Assembly: GCF_017868775.1 (NCBI RefSeq)
Contig: NZ_CP053381.1
Coordinates: 868,001 to 932,000, forward strand
Length of the DNA stretch: 64,000 bases
Reading direction: 5' to 3'
From: Billgrantia sulfidoxydans
Lineage (GTDB): Bacteria > Pseudomonadota > Gammaproteobacteria > Pseudomonadales > Halomonadaceae
Both the position numbers and the translations under genes were made by a program. The notes below the pieces were generated by a model. The model worked only from the letters and a program-made list of their open reading frames with translations, did no database searches and had not been told where the DNA came from. Numbering within the stretch: position 1 is the stretch's first letter; every line of letters starts with the position of its first letter. Positions 4,888 to 46,094 of the stretch are shown piece after piece.

Positions 4888-4963
4888 GGGTCGTTAGCTC
4901 AGTTGGTAGAGCAGTTGGCTTTTAACCAATTGGTCGTAGGTTCGAATCCTACACGACCCACCA
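4888..4963 (+). tRNA. tRNA-Lys (anticodon TTT), copy 1
   Basis: This is a 76-nt cloverleaf with acceptor arm GGGTCG/CGACCC, D-loop AGCTCAGTTGGTAGAGC, anticodon loop CTTTTAA (anticodon TTT at 4921-4923) and T-arm GTAGGTTCGAATCCTAC. Discriminator A and an encoded CCA end are at 4960-4963. It is identical in sequence to the copy at 4995-5070. Confidence 0.97.
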
Positions 4964-4994
4964 CTCCGGGCCTGGATGCTTGTCTGCAAGTGCT

Positions 4995-5070
4995 GGGTCG
5001 TTAGCTCAGTTGGTAGAGCAGTTGGCTTTTAACCAATTGGTCGTAGGTTCGAATCCTACACGACCCACCA
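4995..5070 (+). tRNA. tRNA-Lys (anticodon TTT), copy 2
   Basis: This is an exact duplicate of the preceding tRNA-Lys, beginning 107 bases downstream after a 31-base spacer, again with an encoded CCA. The spacer has no promoter, and a strong hairpin follows only after this copy, so the two are probably co-transcribed and processed from one precursor. Confidence 0.97.
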
Positions 5071-5348: not shown

Positions 5349-6377
5349 ATGACAATCATGACTTCCCGCCTCGAGGTGCGCGAGCACCTCGCCCGCGCTT
5401 ACTGCCCGACCCGCATTCCGGCCGAGGACGAAGCGCGCATCGACGAGATCAAGCGCCTCCTCGAGCAGCACAATGCGGTGCTGGTGGCGCATTACTACAC
5501 CGACGATGCCATTCAGCAGCTGGCCGAGGAGACCGGCGGCTGCGTGGCCGATTCGCTGGAAATGGCCCGCTTCGGGGCGCGTCACGACGCCGATACCCTG
5601 GTGGTGGCCGGCGTACGCTTCATGGGCGAGACGGCCAAGATCCTCTCGCCCGAGAAGCGCGTGTTGATGCCCACGCTGGAGGCGACCTGCTCGCTCGACA
5701 TCGGTTGCCCGGCCGACGAGTTCAGTGCCTTCTGCGATCAGCATCCCGACCGCACCGTGGTGGTCTACGCCAACACCTCGGCGGCGGTGAAGGCGCGCGC
5801 CGACTGGGTGGTGACTTCCTCCATCGCGGTGGACGTCATCGAGCACCTGCAGGCCCGCGGCGAGAAGATCCTGTGGGCGCCGGACAAGCACCTGGGCGGC
5901 TACATCCAGCAGAAGACCGGCGCCGACATGCTGCTGTGGGACGGCGCCTGCATCGTCCACGAGGAGTTCAAGGCCAAGGGCATCGAGGACCTGAAAGGGC
6001 TCTATCCCGACGCCGCCGTGCTGGTGCACCCGGAATCGCCGGCCTCGGTGGTGGCGCTGGCCGATGTCGCCGGCTCGACCTCGCAGCTGATCAAGGCGGC
6101 CAGGGAGCTGCCGAACGACAAGCTGATCGTCGCCACCGACCGCGGCATCTTCTTCAAGATGCAGCAGATGGTGCCCGACAAGACCCTGTTCGAGGCGCCC
6201 ACCGCCGGCAACGGCGCGACCTGCAAGAGCTGCGCTCACTGCCCGTGGATGGCGATGAACGCACTGGACAACCTGGCTGGCGCCTTGCGTGAGGGCAGCG
6301 GCGAGATCTTCGTCGACGCCGAGCTGCGCCTGAGGGCGCTCAAGCCGCTGGAGCGCATGCTCAACTTCAATTCCTGA
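5349..6377 (+). CDS. nadA: Quinolinate synthase NadA
   Basis: NadA condenses iminoaspartate with dihydroxyacetone phosphate to give quinolinate in de novo NAD synthesis. The 342-residue protein has the family signatures [38 protein letters not shown] and [20 protein letters not shown]. The three [4Fe-4S]-ligand regions can be seen as [20 protein letters not shown] and [11 protein letters not shown] start at ATG 5349; ATG 5358 is also possible, and the frame runs open upstream through the tRNA region without looking coding. nadC, the next pathway step, is at 15122-15976. The TGA stop is followed at once by a 7-bp tandem array. Confidence 0.93.
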
Positions 6378-6461
6378 GCTTCGGGCTTCGGGCTTCGGGC
6401 TTCGGGCTTCGGGCTTCGGGCTTCGGGCTTCGGGCTTCGGGCTTCGGGCTTCGGGCTTCGG
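6378..6461 (+). repeat. Twelve perfect copies of the heptamer GCTTCGG after nadA
   Basis: The array begins at the first base after the nadA TGA and contains 12 uninterrupted units without a mismatch. Its last GG plus the next G form the base of the terminator stem that follows. It is one of six such arrays in the window, all lying after stop codons in convergent gene pairs. Confidence 0.97.
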
Positions 6462-6498
6462 GTAAAAAGCCCGTGACGTTGTCACGGGCTTTTTACCC
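6460..6498. terminator. Bidirectional terminator between nadA and bepA
   Basis: A perfect 18-bp inverted repeat (6460-6477 with 6481-6498) closes a 3-nt loop. The core stem GCCCGTGAC/GTCACGGGC is flanked by five A on the left and five T on the right, so it has terminator form on both strands, as expected between two convergent genes. Confidence 0.88.
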
Positions 6499-6506
6499 TA
6501 AACTGC

Positions 6507-6548
6507 TCGCGGCTCGCGGCTCGCGGCTCGCGGCTCGCGGCTCGCGGC
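6507..6548 (-). repeat. Six perfect copies of the heptamer GCCGCGA (minus strand) after bepA
   Basis: Read on the minus strand, the array begins at the base following the bepA TGA stop (6551-6549). Six perfect units are followed by GCAGTTTAGGG and then the shared terminator. The unit differs from that of the facing nadA array but fits the same GCYNCGR pattern. Confidence 0.97.
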
Positions 6549-8003
6549 TCAGAACTTCTCCATCGTCTCGCGATAACCGACGAAATCCTCGCGGCGCTGC
6601 TCGATGCGCGCCAGGGCGTTGCCGTCGCCGCTCTGTTCCGCCACTCGGCGGGCCACGTCGAGCTGGCGGATGGCGCGATCGATCTCGCCGGTGAGCTGCA
6701 TCTGCTCGGCCCGTGCCAGGTGGCCCCAGGCCTCGCGGCCGCTGCGACCGGCGGCTTCGGCGAGCAGGGTGAAGATCTGCGGGTCCTCGGGGCGTCGGCT
6801 GGCCAGCTCGTTCAGAATTCGATAGGCCGCGTCGGGGTCGCGCTGCAGCAGCGCTTCGCCCAGGATGCGGGTGGCCGGCACATGGCCCGGCATCAGGCGC
6901 AGGATGCGCCGGCTGCGCTCGATGGCCTCGTCGTAGCGGCCGGCCGTGAAGGCGACCTCGGCGGCGCTGACGGGCAGCAGGGCGAGATCGGGCAGCTCGC
7001 GTGCCAGGCCGTCGAGCTGATTCAGCGCGGTGTCGGTCTGGCCGTGGTGGGCGGCGATCAAGGCGTCGAGATAGCGTCTGGCCGCCGCTGGTGCATCATC
7101 CTGGGCCAGGCGCGTCGCCGCCTGCTGCGGGTCGCGCTGGTTCACCGCCAGCAGCGCCCGGGCGCGCACCAGGTGATAGATCGGGTCACCCTCGCGGGAA
7201 CGCATGGGCTCGAGCTGCGAGGCGCGGGACTCGGCATCGCTGATACGCGATTCGGTCAGCGGATGGGTGAGCAGGAACTCCGGCGGGTTGCCGCCCTGCA
7301 GGCTCACCTGGCGCTGCATGGCGCGGAACATCCTGACCATGGCGTCGGGGTCGAAGCCCGCCTGGGCCATGGTCTGCAGGCCGAGGCGGTCGGCCTCCTG
7401 CTCGAAGCGCCGCGAATAGGCCAGTTGGTCCTGGACGAAGGCGGCCTGGGAGCCCATGGCGGCGGCGATGCCGGCGTCGCCGCCGCCGCTGGCGGCGATC
7501 AGCATGCCGGCCAGCATCGCCGCCATGGCGGGCAGTTGGGTCTGCTCGGCGCGTGCCTGGCCGCGTGAATAGTGGCGCTGGGCGAGGTGGCCCAGCTCGT
7601 GGGCCAGTACCGAAGCGACGGCATCCTCCTCGCTGGCGAAGGCGAACAGGCCGGCATTGACGCCAATGACGCCGCCCGGCACGGCAAAGGCATTGAGGGC
7701 GCGGTTGTCCACCAGCGTCACCACGGTATTGGCGTCGGTGAGCCCGCTGTGGGGGAGCAGGCGGGACACCAGCGATTCGACGTAGTCCTGCGCAATCGGG
7801 TCCTGCCAGGCGGTGACCCGAGCGCGGAACTGGCGCAGCCAGGCCCGGCCCAGGCGGAACTCCTCGCCGGTGATGGCCTGGCTGCTGCCGGTCAGGCTGG
7901 GCAGCCCATAGTCTTGCGTGGCGTTCACCGGCGCCGCTGAGCTCAGGCCCAGGGTCAGCGCGATGGCGCCGGTGGTCAGGCAGGTTCGGGTCTTGCGCAG
8001 CAT
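6549..8003 (-). CDS. bepA: BepA-like periplasmic M48 metalloprotease/chaperone with TPR repeats
   Basis: In E. coli, BepA (YfgC) degrades or helps assemble outer-membrane proteins such as LptD in the periplasm. The 484-residue protein starts with a Sec signal peptide (cleavage likely near PVNA-TQ, residue 28). The zinc motif HELGH is at residues 135-139, and a third ligand is expected in FEQEADRLG. After the protease domain (about 40-270) come roughly 200 Ala/Leu-rich residues forming TPR-like helices. The length is close to the 487 residues of E. coli BepA. The gene converges on nadA across paired heptamer arrays and is divergent from the tusA-like gene. Confidence 0.85.
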   Translation of the reverse strand: MLRKTRTCLTTGAIALTLGLSSAAPVNATQDYGLPSLTGSSQAITGEEFRLGRAWLRQFRARVTAWQDPIAQDYVESLVSRLLPHSGLTDANTVVTLVDNRALNAFAVPGGVIGVNAGLFAFASEEDAVASVLAHELGHLAQRHYSRGQARAEQTQLPAMAAMLAGMLIAASGGGDAGIAAAMGSQAAFVQDQLAYSRRFEQEADRLGLQTMAQAGFDPDAMVRMFRAMQRQVSLQGGNPPEFLLTHPLTESRISDAESRASQLEPMRSREGDPIYHLVRARALLAVNQRDPQQAATRLAQDDAPAAARRYLDALIAAHHGQTDTALNQLDGLARELPDLALLPVSAAEVAFTAGRYDEAIERSRRILRLMPGHVPATRILGEALLQRDPDAAYRILNELASRRPEDPQIFTLLAEAAGRSGREAWGHLARAEQMQLTGEIDRAIRQLDVARRVAEQSGDGNALARIEQRREDFVGYRETMEKF

Positions 8004-26695: not shown

Positions 26696-27817
26696 ATGCA
26701 TGGCATGTGGCGGGACGGCAATCGGTTCGAGCTGCTGGCGGAGTCGTCGTGCTTCCTGCCGGCGATGTTCACGGCCATGGAGCGGGCGCGCCGTTCGATC
26801 CTCGTCGAACTCTACCTGATGGAGTCGGGAGAGCTGGCCACGACGCTGATCGATACGCTGTGCCGTGCCGCGACGCGCGGCGTGACGGTCGCGCTGATGC
26901 TGGATGCCTATGGCTCCATGGGGCTGGGCGGCGAGGATCGACGCCGCCTGGAGCAGGCCGGCGTGGCGCTGCGGCTGTTCAACCCGCTGGGGCTGCACTC
27001 GCTGGCACGCAACCTGACCCGTGACCATCGCAAGCTGGTGGTGGTCGACGGCGCCGTCGCCTTCACCGGCGGCTTCGGCGCGGTCGATGAGTTCCTGAAA
27101 GCCTGGTACGAGGTGGCGGTGCGTATCGAGGGGCCGGTCGTTGCCGATTGGGTACGGCTGTTCTCGCGGGTATGGGATTCGCCGATGACGCGTGGCGCCG
27201 GCGATGCGGCTCTGGTACGCCACCTCCAGCTCGAGTTCCACCCACACGAGGACTACCACGCCATGCGTGGCCGCGTGGTGTGGGGGCAGGGCTATCGCTA
27301 CCAGGCCATCCGCCACTCGCTGTATGGCCGGGTGTCGTCGGCCCAGCGTCGCATCTGGCTGTGCACGCCCTATTTCGTGCCCACCTTCAGCCTGCGCATG
27401 CGGTTGGCCCGTGCGGCTCGCCGCGGCGTCGACGTACGCCTGCTGCTGCCCGGCCAAGGCCACGACCACCCCTGGGTGCGCTATGCCGGCCAGCGCTTCT
27501 ACCGGCGCCTGCTGCGCGCCGGCGTGCGCATCTTCGAGTTCCAGCCCACCTTCATTCACGCCAAGTTCTCGCTGGTCGACCAGTGGTCGAGCCTGGGCTC
27601 GTGCAACTTCGACCACTGGAGCCTGCACTGGAACCTGGAAGCCAACCAGGAGGTGGAGGATACCCGCTTCGCCGGCGAGGTGGCGGCGCTGTTCGAGCGC
27701 AACTTCACCGCCAGCCACGAGATCACCTACCAGGCCTGGGTGCGGCGCCCGCGCTGGCAGCGCTTCAAGGAGTGGCTGTTCGGCAGCTTCGATGCCTGGC
27801 TGACGCGGCTGCGCTAG
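26696..27817 (+). CDS. Cardiolipin synthase ClsB-like phospholipase D family protein
   Basis: This 373-residue protein has two complete HxKxxxxD motifs: His111-Arg-Lys113...Asp118 (HRKLVVVDGAVAFTGG) and His288-Ala-Lys290...Asp295 (HAKFSLVDQWSSLGSCNFD). It lacks N-terminal membrane helices, as in ClsB (YbhO) and unlike ClsA, so it probably acts at the membrane surface making cardiolipin. I start at ATG 26696, seven bases after GGGAGG; the longer frame overlaps the plsB promoter. The TAG stop shares its G with the first unit of a 7-bp tandem array. Confidence 0.83.
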   Translation: MHGMWRDGNRFELLAESSCFLPAMFTAMERARRSILVELYLMESGELATTLIDTLCRAATRGVTVALMLDAYGSMGLGGEDRRRLEQAGVALRLFNPLGLHSLARNLTRDHRKLVVVDGAVAFTGGFGAVDEFLKAWYEVAVRIEGPVVADWVRLFSRVWDSPMTRGAGDAALVRHLQLEFHPHEDYHAMRGRVVWGQGYRYQAIRHSLYGRVSSAQRRIWLCTPYFVPTFSLRMRLARAARRGVDVRLLLPGQGHDHPWVRYAGQRFYRRLLRAGVRIFEFQPTFIHAKFSLVDQWSSLGSCNFDHWSLHWNLEANQEVEDTRFAGEVAALFERNFTASHEITYQAWVRRPRWQRFKEWLFGSFDAWLTRLR

Positions 27818-27837
27818 CCACGAGCCACGAGCCACGA
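27817..27837 (+). repeat. Three copies of the heptamer GCCACGA after cls
   Basis: The first unit begins with the G of the cls TAG stop codon and three perfect units follow in register. Only GCTAAACTTCTGC separates it from the longer facing array of the UPF0149 gene. Confidence 0.93.
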
Positions 27838-27850
27838 GCTAAACTTCTGC

Positions 27851-27941
27851 CCGAAGCCCGAAGCCCGAAGCCCGAAGCCCGAAGCCCGAAGCCCGAAGCC
27901 CGAAGCCCGAAGCCCGAAGCCCGAAGCCCGAAGCCCGAAGC
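27851..27941 (-). repeat. Thirteen perfect copies of the heptamer GCTTCGG (minus strand) after the UPF0149 gene
   Basis: Read on the minus strand, the array starts nine bases after the TAA of the UPF0149 gene and has 13 perfect units, then GCAGAAGTTTAG. The unit is the same as that downstream of nadA (6378-6461), with its own gene again providing the sense direction. Unlike the other two loci there is no obvious T-tailed hairpin here. Confidence 0.97.
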
Positions 27942-27950
27942 CGGGAACGC

Positions 27951-28595
27951 TTACCGCTTGCCCTTGCCTCGGCCCGCGGGTTTCTTCTTGCGCGGCACCG
28001 GCTTGGGTGTCTCGGGCGGTACCCGATAGTGCAGGTAGAGGTCCAGCACCAGGTCGGGCAGCTGGGCGGCCAGCGACTCCAGGCGCGCGGTGTCCGCCGT
28101 CATGTCGGCCATGTCCGGCTCGTCGTCGAACAGGCCGGAGAGCGCCATGAACGGCAGCAGCAGGGTGGCGACCGTCTCCTCGTCCTGCTCGAACCAGGCG
28201 GCCTCGTCGAGGAACACCCCCTCCATGAAGCCGGCGCACCAGTCGCCGATGGGCGTCTCCTCCGGGACCGAGCCGTCCAGGGTGAGTTCGAAGGGCAGCT
28301 CGGGCAGGCCGCCCTGCTCCAGGGTGTCGATGGCGTTGCCGCGAAGTTTCTCCAGCAGGCCCAGTATCTCGCTGCGCTCGGCGTCGTCGGTAAAGCTCGG
28401 CTCGCCGTGGAACAGCTCGGCCACCCAGGCAGCGGCCTCGATCTCGCGTGGCGCCACGGCCAGGGCGACGAGAAAACCATGGGCCGAGATCAGGTCCAGA
28501 GCATCGGGATCGACGCGCTCGGAGTCGAGAAACTCATCGAGGCGCTCGAGTTCGTCGTCCTCGAGCAGGGGCTGGGGCAGGGGCGTATCGGACAT
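27951..28595 (-). CDS. UPF0149 (YecA/YgfB) family protein
   Basis: This 214-residue, very acidic, helical protein belongs to the UPF0149 family. Typical features are the N-terminal LLEDDELERLDEFLDSE and the pattern SAHGFLVALAVAP, followed by DWCAGFMEGVFLDEAAW and LPFMALSGLFDD. The last 20 residues are Lys/Pro/Gly-rich and basic. It lacks the C-terminal SEC-C zinc motif of YecA, so it is closer to YgfB-like members. YgfB acts in Pseudomonas beta-lactamase regulation, but I cannot assign that role here. Its TAA is followed by the heptamer array. Confidence 0.8.
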   Translation of the reverse strand: MSDTPLPQPLLEDDELERLDEFLDSERVDPDALDLISAHGFLVALAVAPREIEAAAWVAELFHGEPSFTDDAERSEILGLLEKLRGNAIDTLEQGGLPELPFELTLDGSVPEETPIGDWCAGFMEGVFLDEAAWFEQDEETVATLLLPFMALSGLFDDEPDMADMTADTARLESLAAQLPDLVLDLYLHYRVPPETPKPVPRKKKPAGRGKGKR

Positions 28596-40726: not shown

Positions 40727-41014
40727 TCAGCTGTTCTTGCCGCCCTTGCGCCCCGCCTCGGAGGCCTTCTGACGATCGTTGGCGAAGTTGCCACCGCTGT
40801 GCTGGCCGCCTTTCTGGCCGGCCTGGGAGGCCTTCTGCGGGTCATTGGCGAAGTTGCCACCGCTGTGCTGGCCGCCTTTCTGGCCGGCCTGGGAGGCCTT
40901 CTGTGGGTCGTTGGCGAAGTTGCCGCTGCTACGCTGACCACCCTTGTGGCCGGCTTCTGAGGCCTTCTTGGGATCGTTGGCGAAGTTTCCGGGATTCTGG
41001 TTGCGCTGTGCCAT
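40727..41014 (-). CDS. Small hydrophilic stress protein with four KGG repeats (Con-10/GsiB type)
   Basis: This 95-residue protein consists almost entirely of four 22-residue repeats of the form GNFANDPQKASQAGQKGG. Each contains the stress-induced KGG motif known from Con-10, GsiB and YciG. Such proteins are hydrophilic, largely disordered and induced by desiccation, heat or stationary phase. E. coli yciG likewise lies beside yciF and yciE, which encode the DUF892 proteins found next door here. I start at ATG 41014, preceded by AAGGAGATTACC; the frame extends 11 codons further upstream. Confidence 0.88.
   Translation of the reverse strand: MAQRNQNPGNFANDPKKASEAGHKGGQRSSGNFANDPQKASQAGQKGGQHSGGNFANDPQKASQAGQKGGQHSGGNFANDRQKASEAGRKGGKNS
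40781..41012 (-). repeat. Four tandem 66-bp coding repeats in the KGG gene
   Basis: The block starting GGCGAAGTT occurs at 40781, 40847, 40913 and 40979, exactly 66 bp apart. The first two units are nearly identical at the DNA level and the outer ones are more diverged. Such repeats can expand or contract by recombination in multiples of 22 codons. Confidence 0.92.
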
Positions 41015-41336
41015 GGTAATCTCCTTGAATCCTTTCCGCATGAGCATTCATGCATGTACTTCCATTTACCGGGAATCCGGCACTGCTGGCGTTTGCCATC
41101 GTCTTTGAAGATAGAAGCCGCTTTTAACGCTCATCAAGGGGGTTGCTGTTTCCAAGTGAAAAGAAAGTTGTCCCGGTTCGCTTGCGGTTCCCTCGCCGCC
41201 GGCGTTGGCCAAAGCGTTGTCGACAACATGCTTCATTCGCTTGGGAAGCGCCTTGGCATGGGGTAACATGCGGTGAACAGTTAAGAGCCCAAGTGGCGGC
41301 CCCAGGCCCCGAGCTCGAGGAACCGGAGGAGAATCC
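41015..41336. other. Intergenic region between the KGG gene and crbR
   Basis: This 322-bp region must hold the divergent promoters of the KGG gene and crbR. It contains a perfect 12-bp palindrome GTTGTCGACAAC at 41216-41227, a possible operator. I could not find a convincing -35/-10 pair for either gene, nor a copy of the GAC-N4-GTCTA motif. GGAGGAGA precedes the crbR start. Confidence 0.4.
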
Positions 41337-41999
41337 ATGGCCTTTGCCCAGAAATTCATCGTTGCCGATGACCATCCGCTGTTCCGTGCAGCGCTGACGC
41401 AGGCACTGCGCCAGCTGGCGCCCCAGGCCGAGATCGTCGAGTCCGACACCATGGAGGCCACCTGCGAGGTCGTCACGCGCCACCCCGATGCCGACCTGAT
41501 TCTGCTCGACCTGCATATGCCGGGTGCCCATGGTTTTTCGGGCCTGATCCAGCTGCGTGGCCAGACCCCCGACATTCCGGTGGCGGTGGTGTCCGGCAGC
41601 GACGAACCCCATGTGGTGCGTCGTGCCATCGATTACGGGGCCTCGGGCTTCATCCCCAAGTCCTCTTCGTTGCAGCTGATCGCCGAGGCGGTGGGCGAGA
41701 TCCTCGACGGCGAGGTGTGGCTGCCCCAGGAGCTGGCCGATGCCCTGGGCGATGCCAACGAGGAGGAGACCCGCTTCGCCGAGGCCATCGCCTCGCTGAC
41801 GCCGCAGCAGTTCCGTGTGCTCAACATGCTCACCGAAGGCCTGCTCAACAAGCAGATCGCCTATGAGCTGAACGTCTCCGAGGCCACCATCAAGGCCCAT
41901 GTCACCGCTATTCTGCGCAAGCTGGGCGTGCACTCACGCACCCAGGCGGTCATCGCGGCGCAGAAGCTCGAGGTGGAGCCGCCCAAGGTCGAATCCTAG
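41337..41999 (+). CDS. crbR: CrbR-like NarL/FixJ response regulator (acetate switch)
   Basis: This 220-residue regulator has a receiver domain (acidic Asp11-Asp12, phospho-acceptor Asp58 in LILLDLHMPG, Lys in FIPKSSS) and a LuxR-type helix-turn-helix (about 150-212, LTPQQFRVLNMLTEGLLNKQ). It faces the gene of a CrbS-type transporter-histidine kinase. In Vibrio and Pseudomonas this pair (CrbS/CrbR, MxtR/ErdR) activates acs and linked genes. It is convergent with crbS here. Its TAG stop merges into a heptamer array. Confidence 0.85.
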   Translation: MAFAQKFIVADDHPLFRAALTQALRQLAPQAEIVESDTMEATCEVVTRHPDADLILLDLHMPGAHGFSGLIQLRGQTPDIPVAVVSGSDEPHVVRRAIDYGASGFIPKSSSLQLIAEAVGEILDGEVWLPQELADALGDANEEETRFAEAIASLTPQQFRVLNMLTEGLLNKQIAYELNVSEATIKAHVTAILRKLGVHSRTQAVIAAQKLEVEPPKVES

Positions 42000-42061
42000 C
42001 TTCGAGCTTCGAGCTTCGAGCTTCGAGCTTCGAGCTTCGAGCTTCGAGCTTCGAGCTTCGA
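41999..42061 (+). repeat. Nine perfect copies of the heptamer GCTTCGA after crbR
   Basis: The array starts with the G of the crbR TAG stop codon, and nine units follow without mismatch, leading straight into the terminator stem at 42063. Confidence 0.97.
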
Positions 42062-42062
42062 G

Positions 42063-42101
42063 CGAGGGGCCCACGATCATGTCGTGGGCCCCTCGTGTTT
42101 T
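42063..42101 (+). terminator. Terminator after crbR
   Basis: Fourteen perfect base pairs (42063-42076 with 42082-42095) enclose TCATG and are followed by TGTTTT. On the minus strand there is no T-run, so it mainly serves crbR. Confidence 0.85.
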
Positions 42102-42110
42102 GCATGCTGC

Positions 42111-42145
42111 CCGTGGCCCGTGGCCCGTGGCCCGTGGCCCGTTGC
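42111..42145 (-). repeat. Four perfect plus one degenerate GCCACGG heptamer (minus strand) after crbS
   Basis: Read on the minus strand, one base after the crbS TAA comes GCAACGG and then four perfect GCCACGG units, ending in GCAGC. It is the short partner of the facing crbR array. Confidence 0.92.
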
Positions 42146-42146
42146 G

Positions 42147-45100
42147 TTAGGCGCTGGGCGCCCGGCTGGCCTGCAGCGTACGGGTCAGCAGGGCACGCAG
42201 CGCGGCGGGGCGCACCGGCTTCTGCAGCAGGTGGTAGCCGCTGCGGCGAATCTCCTCGGCGACCTCCTCGGTGCGATCGGCGGTGATCACGATGCCCGGC
42301 ACCGCGCCCTGCAGCCGTTCGCTGAGCGCCTCCAGCGCCATCAGGCCGGTGACCTCGTTGTCGAGGTGGTAGTCGGCGAGTATCGCATCCGGCTCGCCGT
42401 CGAGGTTGCGCAGCACCGACTTGGCCCCGCCGATGGTGGTGGCGGTGTAGACCTCGCAGCCCCACCCCGACAGCATGGCGCGCATGCCCTCGAGGATCAG
42501 CGTCTCGTTGTCGATGCACAGGATGCGGGTCCCCGCCAGCTTGTTGCCCACGCGGCGCGGCGAGGCGGCTTCCTCGGCACGCTCGGCGGCGCTGCGCGGC
42601 GCCACGACCGGCACGCTGACCGAGAACATGGTGCCGACGCCTTCCCGCGAGAAGACCTTGATCGGATGGTCGAGCACGCGACTCATGCGATCGGCGATCG
42701 ACAGCCCCAGGCCCAGGCCCTTCTCGCTCTCCTTGTGCCGTGTGGCCTGGTCCAGACGGCGGAACTCCTGGAAGATCTCGGCCTGCTTGGACTCGGGAAT
42801 GCCCGGGCCCGAGTCCCACACCTCGATGGTCAGCCGCGAGCTGCGGCGACGGCAGCCCAGCAGCACCCGGCCCTCCTGGGTGTAGCGCAGCGCATTGGAG
42901 AGGAAGTTCTGCACGATTCGGCGCAGCATCTGCGGGTCGCTGTCGACCCATTGCCGGGTCGGCACCACCACCAGGTCGAGGCCGCGATCCTCGGCCATCA
43001 CCTCGAACTCGGCGCGCAGCGGCTGGAAGATGTCGGCCAGGGCGAAATGACTGCGTCGCGGGGTGAGGGCGCCGGCATCGAGCTTGGAAATGTCGAGCAG
43101 GGTGCCGAGCAGTTCCTCGGCCGCCTGCAGCGAATTGTCGATGTGGCCGATGGTGCGCTTCATGTCGTCGGCGTCCATCTCGTGAGACAGCGCCGAGGTG
43201 AACAAACGGGCGGCGTTCAACGGCTGCAGCAGGTCGTGGCTGGCGGCGGCGAGGAAGCGCGTCTTGGAGGCGTTGGCGTCCTCCGCCACCTGCTTGGCCT
43301 GGCGCAGGGCCTGCTCGGCCTCGGCGCGCACGCGGTTCTCCTGGCGCAGGGCGGTGTTGGCCTCGGATAGCGCCTGGGTGCGCTCGCGCACGCGCTCCTC
43401 CAGGGTCTCGTTGGTCTCCTTCAAGGCGATCTCCGCCAGGCGCCGCTCGGTGATGTCCTGGTAGAGCGCAAAGAAGCCGAGGATGGCGCCGCTATCGCCG
43501 AAGTGCGGGGTGTAGGTCACCAGCATGTAGCGCAGGTCGTCGGCGATACGCATCGACACTTCGAAGCTGACCCGCTCGCCGGCCAGGGCGCGGCGGATCC
43601 AAGGGTCGCGCTCGCGGGCCATCTGCTCGCTGATGACGGTCTCGAGGGGCTTGCCGATGACCTCGTTGCGGTCGATGCCGAAGGCCTGCTCGTAGGCGCG
43701 GTTGGTGAAGAGGTAGCGGCACTCCTTGTCGAAGTAGGCGATCAGTGCCGGCACGTTGTCGGTGTAGATGCGGATATTGTTCTCCGAGCGGATCAACGCC
43801 TCTTCGATGCGCTTCTGCTGGGTGATGTCCTGGTAGGTGTAGACGAAGCCGCCTCCCGGCATGGGGTTGCCCTGGACCTCCAGCACGCTGCCATCCTGGC
43901 GGTAGCGCACGTAGCGGTGGGGCTGGCCGTCGCGGATATTGTCGATCAGCAGTTGGACGTGTTCCTCGGGGTCGCCGGGACCGTACTCGCCGTTATGGGC
44001 GTTGTAGCGGAAGATCTTGTCCATCGGCGCGCCTACCCGGATCAGGTGATCGGGAAAGCGGAACAGCTCCAGGTAGCGCTGGTTCCACACCACCAGGCGC
44101 ATGTTCTGGTCGACCACGCTGATGCCCTGGTTGATGTTCTCGATGGTGGCCTGCAGCAGGGCACGGTTGAACTCCAGCACCTGGGAGGCCTCGTCGACGA
44201 TCGAGATCACGTCCGAGATGCCGATGCCGCGCCCCTGCAGCGCCGAGTTGACCACGATGCGCGCCGAGGAGGCGCCGAGCACCGAGGCCAGGAAGCGTTC
44301 GGTGAACTGGATCACGTCGATGGAGGCGCGGTTGCCGTCCTCCAGCGGTTTGCCGGTGCGCCGCGCGTAGTCGTCGAAGGCGCGAGTCACCTGGCCGGCG
44401 GCGAGGAACCGCTCGCACAGCACCTTGAGATCGCCGACGGTGGTGGCGCCGGTCCAGGGGCGGTTGACCGAGGTCTGGCGGGTCTCGACGCTGTCGACGA
44501 ACAGCGAGGCCTGGATGCGCTCGACCACCCGCTGCGAGGTGATCTGCGAGACGAAGATGTAGCAGAACAGGTTGACCCCGAGCGAGAGCATCACCCCATG
44601 GGTGAAGGAGTCGCCGAAATTGAGCCCGAACAGCGCGGTCGGGGTCAGCCAGGGATGGTCGAAGGGGCCGCCAACGAGCCACTCGGCCGGTAGCACGCCG
44701 GCCTGGATCATGCCCGGCATCAGCAGGCTGTAAGCCCAGATGGCGAACCCGGCGTTCATGCCCACCACCACGCCGAGGCGGTTGCCGCGCTTCCAGTAGA
44801 GCCCACCGAGCAGGGCCGGGGCGAACTGGGCCGCCGCGGCGAAGGAGAGCATGCCGATCGAGGCCAGCGAGGTGAACTCGCCGATCAGGCGGTAGAAGCC
44901 GTAGGCCAGCGCCAGGATCACCCCGATGGTGATGCGCCGTGCCTGGAGCACCAGGCGACCGTAATCGCGCGGACGGGCATCCAGCCAGCGCAGGCGGAAC
45001 AGCAGCGGGATCACGATCTCGTTGGAGATCATGATCGAGACCGCCACCGTGGCCACGATCACCATGCCGGTGGCGGCGGAGAAGCCGCCGATGTAGGTGA

Positions 45101-46094
45101 GCAGGGTCAGCCACTGCTGGCCGGCGGCCATCGGCAGCGCCAGCACGAAGGTGTCGGGTTCCACCGAGCCGTCGGGGAACAGGGCCAGGCCGGCGGCGGC
45201 GATGGGCAGGATGAAGAAGGCGAAGGCCACCAGATAGAGCGGGAACAGCCAGCGCGCCTTGGCAGCATCATTGGGGTGGGTGTTCTCCACCACGGCGACG
45301 TGGAACTGGCGTGGCAGGCAGAAGATCGCCAGCATCGCCAGCAGCGTCTGGGCCCAGAAGCCGCGGCCGAAATCCTGGTCGGCGAGCTGACGCTGCAGCT
45401 CCATCTGGGTGTCGGCGATGGCCATCAGCTCGCCGAGGCCATCGAACATGCCCCAGGTGACGTAGGCGCCCAGGATCAGGAAGGCCAGCAGCTTGACCAT
45501 CGACTCGAAGGCGACGGCGTGGATCAGCCCCTCGTGGTGCTCGGTGGCGTCGGTGTGGCGGGTACCGAACAGAATGGCGAAGGCGGCCATCACGATGGCC
45601 ACGAAGAAGGCCGTATCGCCGAAGAGCGGGGTGTGGGTGATGTCCGCTGCTTCCGTCAGCACGGCGAACGAGGTCGACACGGCCTTCAACTGCAGGGCGA
45701 TGTAGGGCAGCGTGCCGATCAGCGCGACCAGGCTGGCGAAGGCGGCCAGGGACTGCGCCTTGCCGTAGCGCGAGGCGATGAAGTCGGCAATCGAGGTGAC
45801 GTTCTGCCGCTTGGCCACGCGGATCATCTTGGCCAGTATCGGCCAGAACAGCAGGAAGGTGAGGATCGGGCCGACGTAGATGCTGGCGAAGGACCAGCCC
45901 GCGGTGGCGGCTTGGCCGACCGCACCGTAGAAGCTCCAGGAGGTACAGTAGATGGCCAGCGCCAGGATGTAGATGACCGGGCGCTGGCGGCTGGCGCCGC
46001 GCCGACGCGCGTTGCGGTCTCCCAGCCAGGCGATGCCGAACAGGATGGCGATGTAGAGCAGTGAAACGGCGATCAGCAGCCAACCGGCAAACAT
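42147..46094 (-). CDS. crbS: CrbS-like hybrid sensor kinase with N-terminal sodium/solute symporter domain
   Basis: This 1315-residue protein combines a sodium/solute symporter-like module with a kinase. The multi-helix membrane domain spans about 1-550 (YCTSWSFYGAVGQAATAGW). A linker leads to two PAS regions (about 660-790 and 790-920), a coiled coil and a HisKA domain with SHDLLQPLNAARLF. The HATPase has NALRYTQEGRV and KGLGLGLSI. A C-terminal receiver domain carries the phospho-acceptor in ILADYHLDNE. This matches CrbS/MxtR, which senses acetate-linked signals. I start at ATG 46094, preceded by GGGAGGAAAC; the frame starts six codons earlier. Confidence 0.9.
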   Translation of the reverse strand: MFAGWLLIAVSLLYIAILFGIAWLGDRNARRRGASRQRPVIYILALAIYCTSWSFYGAVGQAATAGWSFASIYVGPILTFLLFWPILAKMIRVAKRQNVTSIADFIASRYGKAQSLAAFASLVALIGTLPYIALQLKAVSTSFAVLTEAADITHTPLFGDTAFFVAIVMAAFAILFGTRHTDATEHHEGLIHAVAFESMVKLLAFLILGAYVTWGMFDGLGELMAIADTQMELQRQLADQDFGRGFWAQTLLAMLAIFCLPRQFHVAVVENTHPNDAAKARWLFPLYLVAFAFFILPIAAAGLALFPDGSVEPDTFVLALPMAAGQQWLTLLTYIGGFSAATGMVIVATVAVSIMISNEIVIPLLFRLRWLDARPRDYGRLVLQARRITIGVILALAYGFYRLIGEFTSLASIGMLSFAAAAQFAPALLGGLYWKRGNRLGVVVGMNAGFAIWAYSLLMPGMIQAGVLPAEWLVGGPFDHPWLTPTALFGLNFGDSFTHGVMLSLGVNLFCYIFVSQITSQRVVERIQASLFVDSVETRQTSVNRPWTGATTVGDLKVLCERFLAAGQVTRAFDDYARRTGKPLEDGNRASIDVIQFTERFLASVLGASSARIVVNSALQGRGIGISDVISIVDEASQVLEFNRALLQATIENINQGISVVDQNMRLVVWNQRYLELFRFPDHLIRVGAPMDKIFRYNAHNGEYGPGDPEEHVQLLIDNIRDGQPHRYVRYRQDGSVLEVQGNPMPGGGFVYTYQDITQQKRIEEALIRSENNIRIYTDNVPALIAYFDKECRYLFTNRAYEQAFGIDRNEVIGKPLETVISEQMARERDPWIRRALAGERVSFEVSMRIADDLRYMLVTYTPHFGDSGAILGFFALYQDITERRLAEIALKETNETLEERVRERTQALSEANTALRQENRVRAEAEQALRQAKQVAEDANASKTRFLAAASHDLLQPLNAARLFTSALSHEMDADDMKRTIGHIDNSLQAAEELLGTLLDISKLDAGALTPRRSHFALADIFQPLRAEFEVMAEDRGLDLVVVPTRQWVDSDPQMLRRIVQNFLSNALRYTQEGRVLLGCRRRSSRLTIEVWDSGPGIPESKQAEIFQEFRRLDQATRHKESEKGLGLGLSIADRMSRVLDHPIKVFSREGVGTMFSVSVPVVAPRSAAERAEEAASPRRVGNKLAGTRILCIDNETLILEGMRAMLSGWGCEVYTATTIGGAKSVLRNLDGEPDAILADYHLDNEVTGLMALEALSERLQGAVPGIVITADRTEEVAEEIRRSGYHLLQKPVRPAALRALLTRTLQASRAPSA

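Follow-up and report, generated by a model that had tools for sequence, protein, structure and literature searches.

Tandem arrays of 7-bp units at gene borders of Billgrantia sulfidoxydans and related genomes are probably slippage-driven, fast-turnover extragenic repeats whose extent is limited by coding sequence, ribosome-binding sites, and terminators. Their architecture is already published for Xanthomonas and Nostoc (PMC4692102, in the part of its text available to us), and the present arrays belong to that class; new here are other units that mostly lack G-tracts, exact abutment on the stop codon, and turnover of the unit at a single site. The DNA studied, henceforth the window, is a stretch of 64,000 nucleotides (positions 868001-932000 of a 4,491,948-bp contig; genome label G000) in which ORFs and genes were called by a codon-usage script. 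Three facing pairs of arrays lie in it at convergent gene ends, with the following features.

5358..6377, plus strand: nadA (quinolinate synthase), TGA stop (PF02445, gene call)
6378..6462, plus strand: 12 perfect GCTTCGG units, immediately 3' of the nadA stop (sequence, TRF)
6460..6498, no strand: inverted repeat with an 18-bp stem and an A-run/T-run, bidirectional terminator-like (sequence, fold)
6505..6550, minus strand: 6 perfect GCCGCGA units, immediately 3' of the stop of the bepA-like gene (sequence, TRF)
6549..8003, minus strand: bepA-like M48 peptidase with TPR (PF01435/PF14559)
26696..27817, plus strand: gene for a PLD-domain protein, TAG stop (PF13091)
27816..27839, plus strand: 3 GCCACGA units, the first unit base being the G of TAG (sequence)
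27849..27942, minus strand: 13 GCTTCGG units, 9 bases past the stop of the UPF0149 gene (sequence)
27951..28595, minus strand: UPF0149 gene (PF03695)
41337..41999, plus strand: response regulator (LuxR-type) with a GerE domain, TAG stop (domain search)
41998..42063, plus strand: 9 GCTTCGA units, the first unit base being the G of TAG (sequence)
42064..42094, no strand: hairpin with a 14-bp stem, between the two arrays (fold)
42109..42142, minus strand: 4 GCCACGG units, 8 bases past the stop, with one degenerate unit in between (sequence)
42147..46094, minus strand: hybrid sensor kinase gene (PAS/HisKA/HATPase/Response_reg)

Sequence and TRF bear out the original prediction for the positions, units, and copy numbers of all six arrays, and sequence and folding do so for the inverted repeat with its 18-bp stem at nadA/bepA; the identities of nadA and of the bepA-like M48/TPR gene also hold. 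The first units are offset from the stop by 0, 0, -1, 9, -1, and 8 bases in the order listed, where -1 denotes a G of TAG common to stop and unit; the claims that each array starts no more than 9 bases from the stop and that, at two arrays, the G of TAG is the first unit base are thus correct. By the gene calls, 3 of the 10 convergent gene pairs in the window carry arrays and the remaining 7 are free of them, again as had been stated. Since the six arrays are the top six period-7 TRF rows in the window, chance offers no reasonable account of them. With regard to phase variation, the three pairs all lie downstream of stops, beside genes such as nadA, according to the gene calls. The proposed pairing of a long GCTTCGR array with a short GCCNCGR array describes all four perfect pairs of this genome, three of them in the window and the fourth at 642 kb; the pairs of the relatives do not follow it. 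A consensus terminator scan of the window did not pick up the 18-bp stem, probably because its T-run sits within the stem, and an Rfam search of the window placed no family over the arrays, its sole two matches being tRNAs. These two tRNA genes lie upstream of nadA (4888-5070), have equal scores of 78.5 bits, and belong to an exact 76-bp direct repeat with copies 107 bases apart. A separate 66-bp tandem repeat (40730-40987; 3.9 copies by TRF) is located within a minus-strand ORF (40727-41047).

We extended the analysis to the rest of the genome and to its relatives, which were compared with one genome per species. Of 111 matches to (GCYNCGR)3 in the own genome, 100 were placed and located at least ten array regions; with about nine further matches beyond position 3,999,783, at least one additional array is likely. 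Five of the ten located regions (a minimum) are convergent, five are co-directional, and none is divergent. Together with stretches around arrays from three relatives of the same genus (G066, G072, and G070), the window and 15 other own stretches make up a four-genome set of 1.09 Mb; as most of these stretches were picked for their arrays, frequencies in them are not genome-wide and comparisons of one placement with another inside them are fairer. A period of 7 is almost invariant among intergenic arrays of at least three units: it is found in 15/15 in the own genome (349 kb, comprising the window, seven array-chosen stretches, and eight others) and in 33/35, 36/37, and 31/31 in the mostly array-selected stretches of the other three. 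The units are freer. Other own-genome array regions use GCTACGR, and the four-genome set includes further units such as AGCCGTA, AGCGCCG, and TCGGGGT. Array-free intergenic regions of the sampled stretches display no lag-7 excess; hence seeds are not general and there is no overall heptad background.

Placement relative to genes was scored for the 84 GCYNCGR arrays of the four genomes that have a called gene on both sides. Forty-nine run in the sense direction after a stop and 35 are antisense, pointing away from a start; together with the five co-directional own regions, the latter contradict the notion that the arrays are restricted to gene ends or convergent pairs. The predicted enrichment just after stops is borne out in these genomes: 24 of the 49 stop-side arrays begin at -3 to +2, against 2.7 expected under uniform placement within the same gaps, with 18 more at 3 to 15 bases, 5 beyond 15, and 2 below -3. 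On the start side, 34/35 keep at least 10 bases before the start codon and one lies closer. The 5' end of the array is nearer its ORF border than the 3' end in 72/84 (inward polarity), and the 3' end is found at a border once in 84. Among the units, GCTTCGG has the weakest inward polarity (6/10), and GCTTCGA reaches 8/9. Regions of 40-600 bp holding arrays of any 7-mer comprise 29/89 convergent, 47/366 co-directional, and 3/127 divergent ones.

A scan of species genomes with (GCTWCGA)4 provided an independent set of at least 117 stretches, from which 80 loci were examined. Forty of these belong to Halomonas, Salinicola, Chromohalobacter, Litchfieldella, or Modicisalibacter, and the rest to Alcanivorax, Shewanella, Psychromonas, Paraglaciecola, and others, including some Planctomycetota, Verrucomicrobia, and Bacteroidota. 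Scored as in the four genomes, with 23 arrays that have no called gene on one side left out, 59 arrays gave an inward polarity of 33/59 (17/34 in the Halomonadaceae genera and 16/25 elsewhere). The predicted strand preference therefore stands in the four genomes and is weak in these independent contigs, which suggests that such sharp limits may be peculiar to certain genomes. Among the Halomonadaceae genera of this set, GCTACGA is inward in 10/14 and GCTTCGA in 5/18, with 5 of the latter having the 3' end exactly at the stop. This tendency of GCTTCGA is a real exception to the polarity rule of GCYNCGR; since the complementary strand of (GCTTCGA)n can be read as AGCTCGA, this unit has no unambiguous polarity, a possible reason for the reversal. 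At eight loci of Halomonas and Chromohalobacter (L070, L075, L083, L084, L092, L122, L125, and L133), GCTTCGA or GCTACGA arrays have the 3' end at or near the stop and CTG before the array, opposite to the polarity usually seen. Exact stop abutment recurs in Alcanivorax (L093 and L124) and Shewanella (L107), but is infrequent in the independent set (5/57 GCTACGA or GCTTCGA arrays). An AGC lead was rejected as a special feature of the class as a whole: in 369 Gammaproteobacteria, AGC-led period-7 arrays occur in 41 genomes and the reversed control, a pattern that also hits arrays of the GCTACGA kind, is about equally frequent (about 40).

The history of individual sites is most readily followed at nadA/bepA. 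We found nadA in 89/90 genomes, dropped four with partial matches, and read 85 loci, 71 of which retain the convergent bepA-like gene. Arrays of at least three units are present in 18 of these 71, 17 with period 7 and one, in G087, with period 8; the other 53 have none. Outside G072, 19/19 arrays start -3 to +7 from the stop; the three G072 arrays are set 103-350 bases into a long region. The bepA side alone displays eleven period-7 units (GCCGCGA, AGCAAGG, GGGCAAC, AGCTGCA, AGCGCCA, CGCGCCG, AGCGCCG, AGCGGCA, AGCCGGA, AGCTGGA, and AGCCGCA), and period-7 presence there (15 species, with G087 scored as none) requires 13 changes on the nadA tree, 12 of them forced by well-supported branches. Units on the nadA side are GCTTCGG and GCTACGA, the former in 12 copies in G000, 2 each in G012 and G110, and 1 in G064, where a lone GCTTCGG abutting the nadA TGA represents a resident seed at the place of the twelve. 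By autocorrelation, lag 7 is the single best lag in 28 of the 48 nadA/bepA regions of 60-400 bp and ties in 9; of the 31 without a perfect array, it is the single best in 12 and ties in 9. At PLD/UPF0149, the best 30 of 88 UPF0149 matches were read; 26 retain the PLD neighbor and 6 of these have arrays, 5 with period 7 and one, again in G087, with period 8. GCTTCGG on the UPF0149 side occurs in about 13 copies in G000, 11 in G065, 6 in G085, and 1 in G032 between similar flanks, and G077 has ten AGCTGGA where G000 has GCTTCGG. Copy numbers from 1 to 13 between similar flanks indicate that arrays change in place, and the different units at one orthologous site indicate that various resident 7-mers can be amplified there; both sites were chosen for the arrays of the window and so may be hot spots. 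The two 8-bp arrays of G087 (CGGCCAAG and AGGCCAAG, at L286 in nadA/bepA and L370 in PLD/UPF0149) look as if the period had shifted in that lineage. Two further observations were made: a dispersed element (GGCGCCGGGGACAGG...), about 100-130 bp long, occupies four nadA/bepA regions (L230, L242, L246, and L274) in species that are array-free there and is found elsewhere in G070 (L217, L222, and L224), and a 281-bp intergenic region of G069 (L356) has period-7 arrays of GCGAGGT and GCGAGGG amid many similar degenerate heptads.

The change in place seen at orthologous sites supports the homogenization or slippage originally read from the perfect copies. On the account that we favor, arrays would arise from 7-mers resident at gene borders and be altered in situ through slippage or unequal exchange, processes that could account for the homogeneity of the arrays, the differences between their units, and their turnover. 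Arrays would expand into unconstrained border space until they reach the stop codon, the ribosome-binding site, or the central terminator, where selection would halt them, which might produce the sharp limits. The period itself may reflect a preference of slippage, as in the proposal, attributed to Mrazek et al. 2007 in the available parts of PMC4679880 and PMC4692102, that it corresponds to a polymerase contact length. Self-folding of the unit was rejected as the cause of period 7, as 17 distinct units fall at random percentiles among permutations of their own letters (mean percentile, 0.53-0.60), leaving hairpin-driven slippage unsupported. Slippage alone, however, does not set the inward polarity or the excess of facing heptads, nor does it explain the RGC at the 5' side of the units in these genomes.

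Enterobacterial REP/BIME elements are palindromic, are placed at convergent and intercistronic sites, and avoid divergent promoters; REP sequences are fixed, and they are linked to RAYT transposases. Our arrays share the palindromic design, the convergent and intercistronic placement, and the avoidance of divergent regions, but they have a period of 7 with free units, and the own genome has no PF01797. It is conceivable, though rather unlikely, that they are REP-like functional elements, in which the inward arms would form a long imperfect transcript hairpin around or in place of a terminator and would protect 3' ends or insulate neighboring genes, the heptads being its slip-prone stem. The bias of placement (29/89 convergent against 3/127 divergent regions, with co-directional ones at 47/366) resembles that of REP. 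The four genomes contain 9 perfect facing array pairs, and RGCN4RGC faces the main array from beyond it on the opposite strand in 59/69 array regions, against 19.4 expected from shuffles; the motif is likewise in excess on the array's own strand, the site of degenerate tails (52/69 versus 16.3). The two sides of array regions pair at a mean of -0.62 kcal per nt (shuffled, -0.54), compared with -0.52 (shuffled, -0.51) for array-free regions. Folding is strong at nadA/bepA (z, -7.7), where arm pairs with arm around the terminator, and at the response regulator/hybrid kinase locus (z, -7.1), but PLD/UPF0149 has no excess folding on the plus strand (z, -0.1) and little on the minus strand (z, -2.5). 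Moreover, real arms beat the median swapped partner in just 59/150 cases in array regions (306/548 in array-free ones), so the true partner has no advantage over a swapped one and, if anything, a disadvantage. Base-pair coevolution of the facing arms was therefore rejected, and this comparison supports neither selection for pairing itself nor a function needing the pair; the 53/71 species with no array of at least three units at the orthologous nadA/bepA site also speak against a REP-like element.

That the arrays are mobile or written by an enzyme, with a transposase or reverse transcriptase placing MITE/REP-type elements at gene borders, appears quite unlikely. Among the sampled loci, dispersed sequence is shared by 20/28 array regions of G072 (array-free, 14/139), by 8/23 of G070 (10/107), and by 3/18 of G066 (5/102), and G066, G101, and G072 have a recurrent core that bears a terminator; an element-borne origin is thus possible in G072 and, to a lesser degree, in G070 and G066. 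In the own genome, however, 0/10 array regions share sequence with other sampled loci (array-free, 15/159), and arrays within a genome differ in their units, as templated products would not. A core element common to the sampled loci was accordingly found in none of the own regions and in part of those of G066, G070, and G072. A RAYT transposase was rejected, as PF01797 (Y1 transposase) has no match in G000; among the 13 genomes with at least ten array-pattern matches, 9 have none either. As a separate observation, a dispersed palindromic element (GACCCACATGGACGTGGG...GGGAACACGAATAGCC) lies beside several heptad arrays at five G072 loci (L187, L191, L193, L196, and L197). We regard as highly improbable a repeated site for a single-strand binding protein (Csp or S1 type) that would recognize the period and not the sequence: the nearly fixed period and varying unit at nadA/bepA would suit it, as would the reported capacity of each heptamer to take up one CspB in a weakly sequence-specific manner (PMC4679880, from the text available), but arrays are gained and lost between close relatives. 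A very unlikely, more speculative variant is that the cell reads, or an enzyme writes, period 7 and inward polarity and not sequence, such that heptads with RGC at the 5' end and free inner letters would be laid from both ORF borders inward, the facing arms being kept unlike so that no perfect palindrome results. The weak polarity outside the four genomes makes this less likely; if true, it would mean a gene-border element that is indifferent to sequence and renews itself. As to the endings of facing units, identical units occur in 0/9 facing pairs (1.8 expected from these few pairs), all six perfect pairs of G000 and G070, genomes that have both kinds of ending, set an A-ended unit against a G-ended one, and A-ended units face each other in the three perfect pairs of G066 and G072; these few pairs hint at avoidance of perfect palindromes.

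The arrays fit within a class of repeats that the available text of Rehm et al. 2015 (PMC4692102) describes for Xanthomonas and Nostoc: intergenic arrays of 2 to 26 units of GGGAATC or GGGGA(C/T)T with period 7, mostly no more than 50 bp from a stop (sense, some overlapping it) or a start (antisense), nearer their 5' neighbor ORF, under-represented between divergent ORFs, and variable in length and sequence among related species. That text counts opposite-strand convergent heptamer pairs at 70 in Xcc and 75 in Xac; the paired, sense-oriented arrangement, for which the original prediction knew of no precedent, thus has one in the pairs of 7-nt arrays near convergent stops of Xanthomonas. Measured against that portion of the paper, the present arrays are likewise tandem and intergenic with a unit length of 7, have 5' ends near an ORF border (72/84 in the four genomes and weakly so, 33/59, in independent contigs), form convergent pairs (9 perfect ones and facing heptads in 59/69 versus 19.4 expected), and are rare at divergent ORFs (3/127 versus 29/89 at convergent ones). 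They differ from the same description in their units, which are GCYNCGR and other RGC-led heptamers with several per genome; in the variation of the unit at one site among related species; and in the start of 24/49 stop-side arrays within -3 to +2 of the stop. They also differ from the G-quadruplex GGGNATC family, which has a G3 tract per unit: 59/83 GCYNCGR arrays (6/14 in the own genome, counted from the unit table) have no such tract, evidence against a common basis of the architecture in G-quadruplexes, and GGG recurs every 7 bases in the GCTTCGG and GCCACGG arrays. The TAACTGA arrays of Beggiatoaceae, in the available part of PMC4679880, are also intergenic heptamers but have a single invariant unit and mostly lie shortly before start codons, and convergent gene-end pairs are not found in that part of the paper, unlike in our material. 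The same source reports that indels in heptamer arrays of Cyanothece are mostly in 7-nt steps.

Among long SSRs, heptamers are reportedly the commonest class in the majority of the bacterial genomes surveyed (Mrazek et al. 2007, according to the available text of PMC4679880), and the reason offered for this is no more than a proposal. For this class, the genus represents a natural experiment, with one convergent site in 71 species at which heptamers differ, arrays are gained and lost, and copy number ranges between 1 and 13. Period and polarity thereby become testable questions, and the arrays could serve as strain-typing markers.
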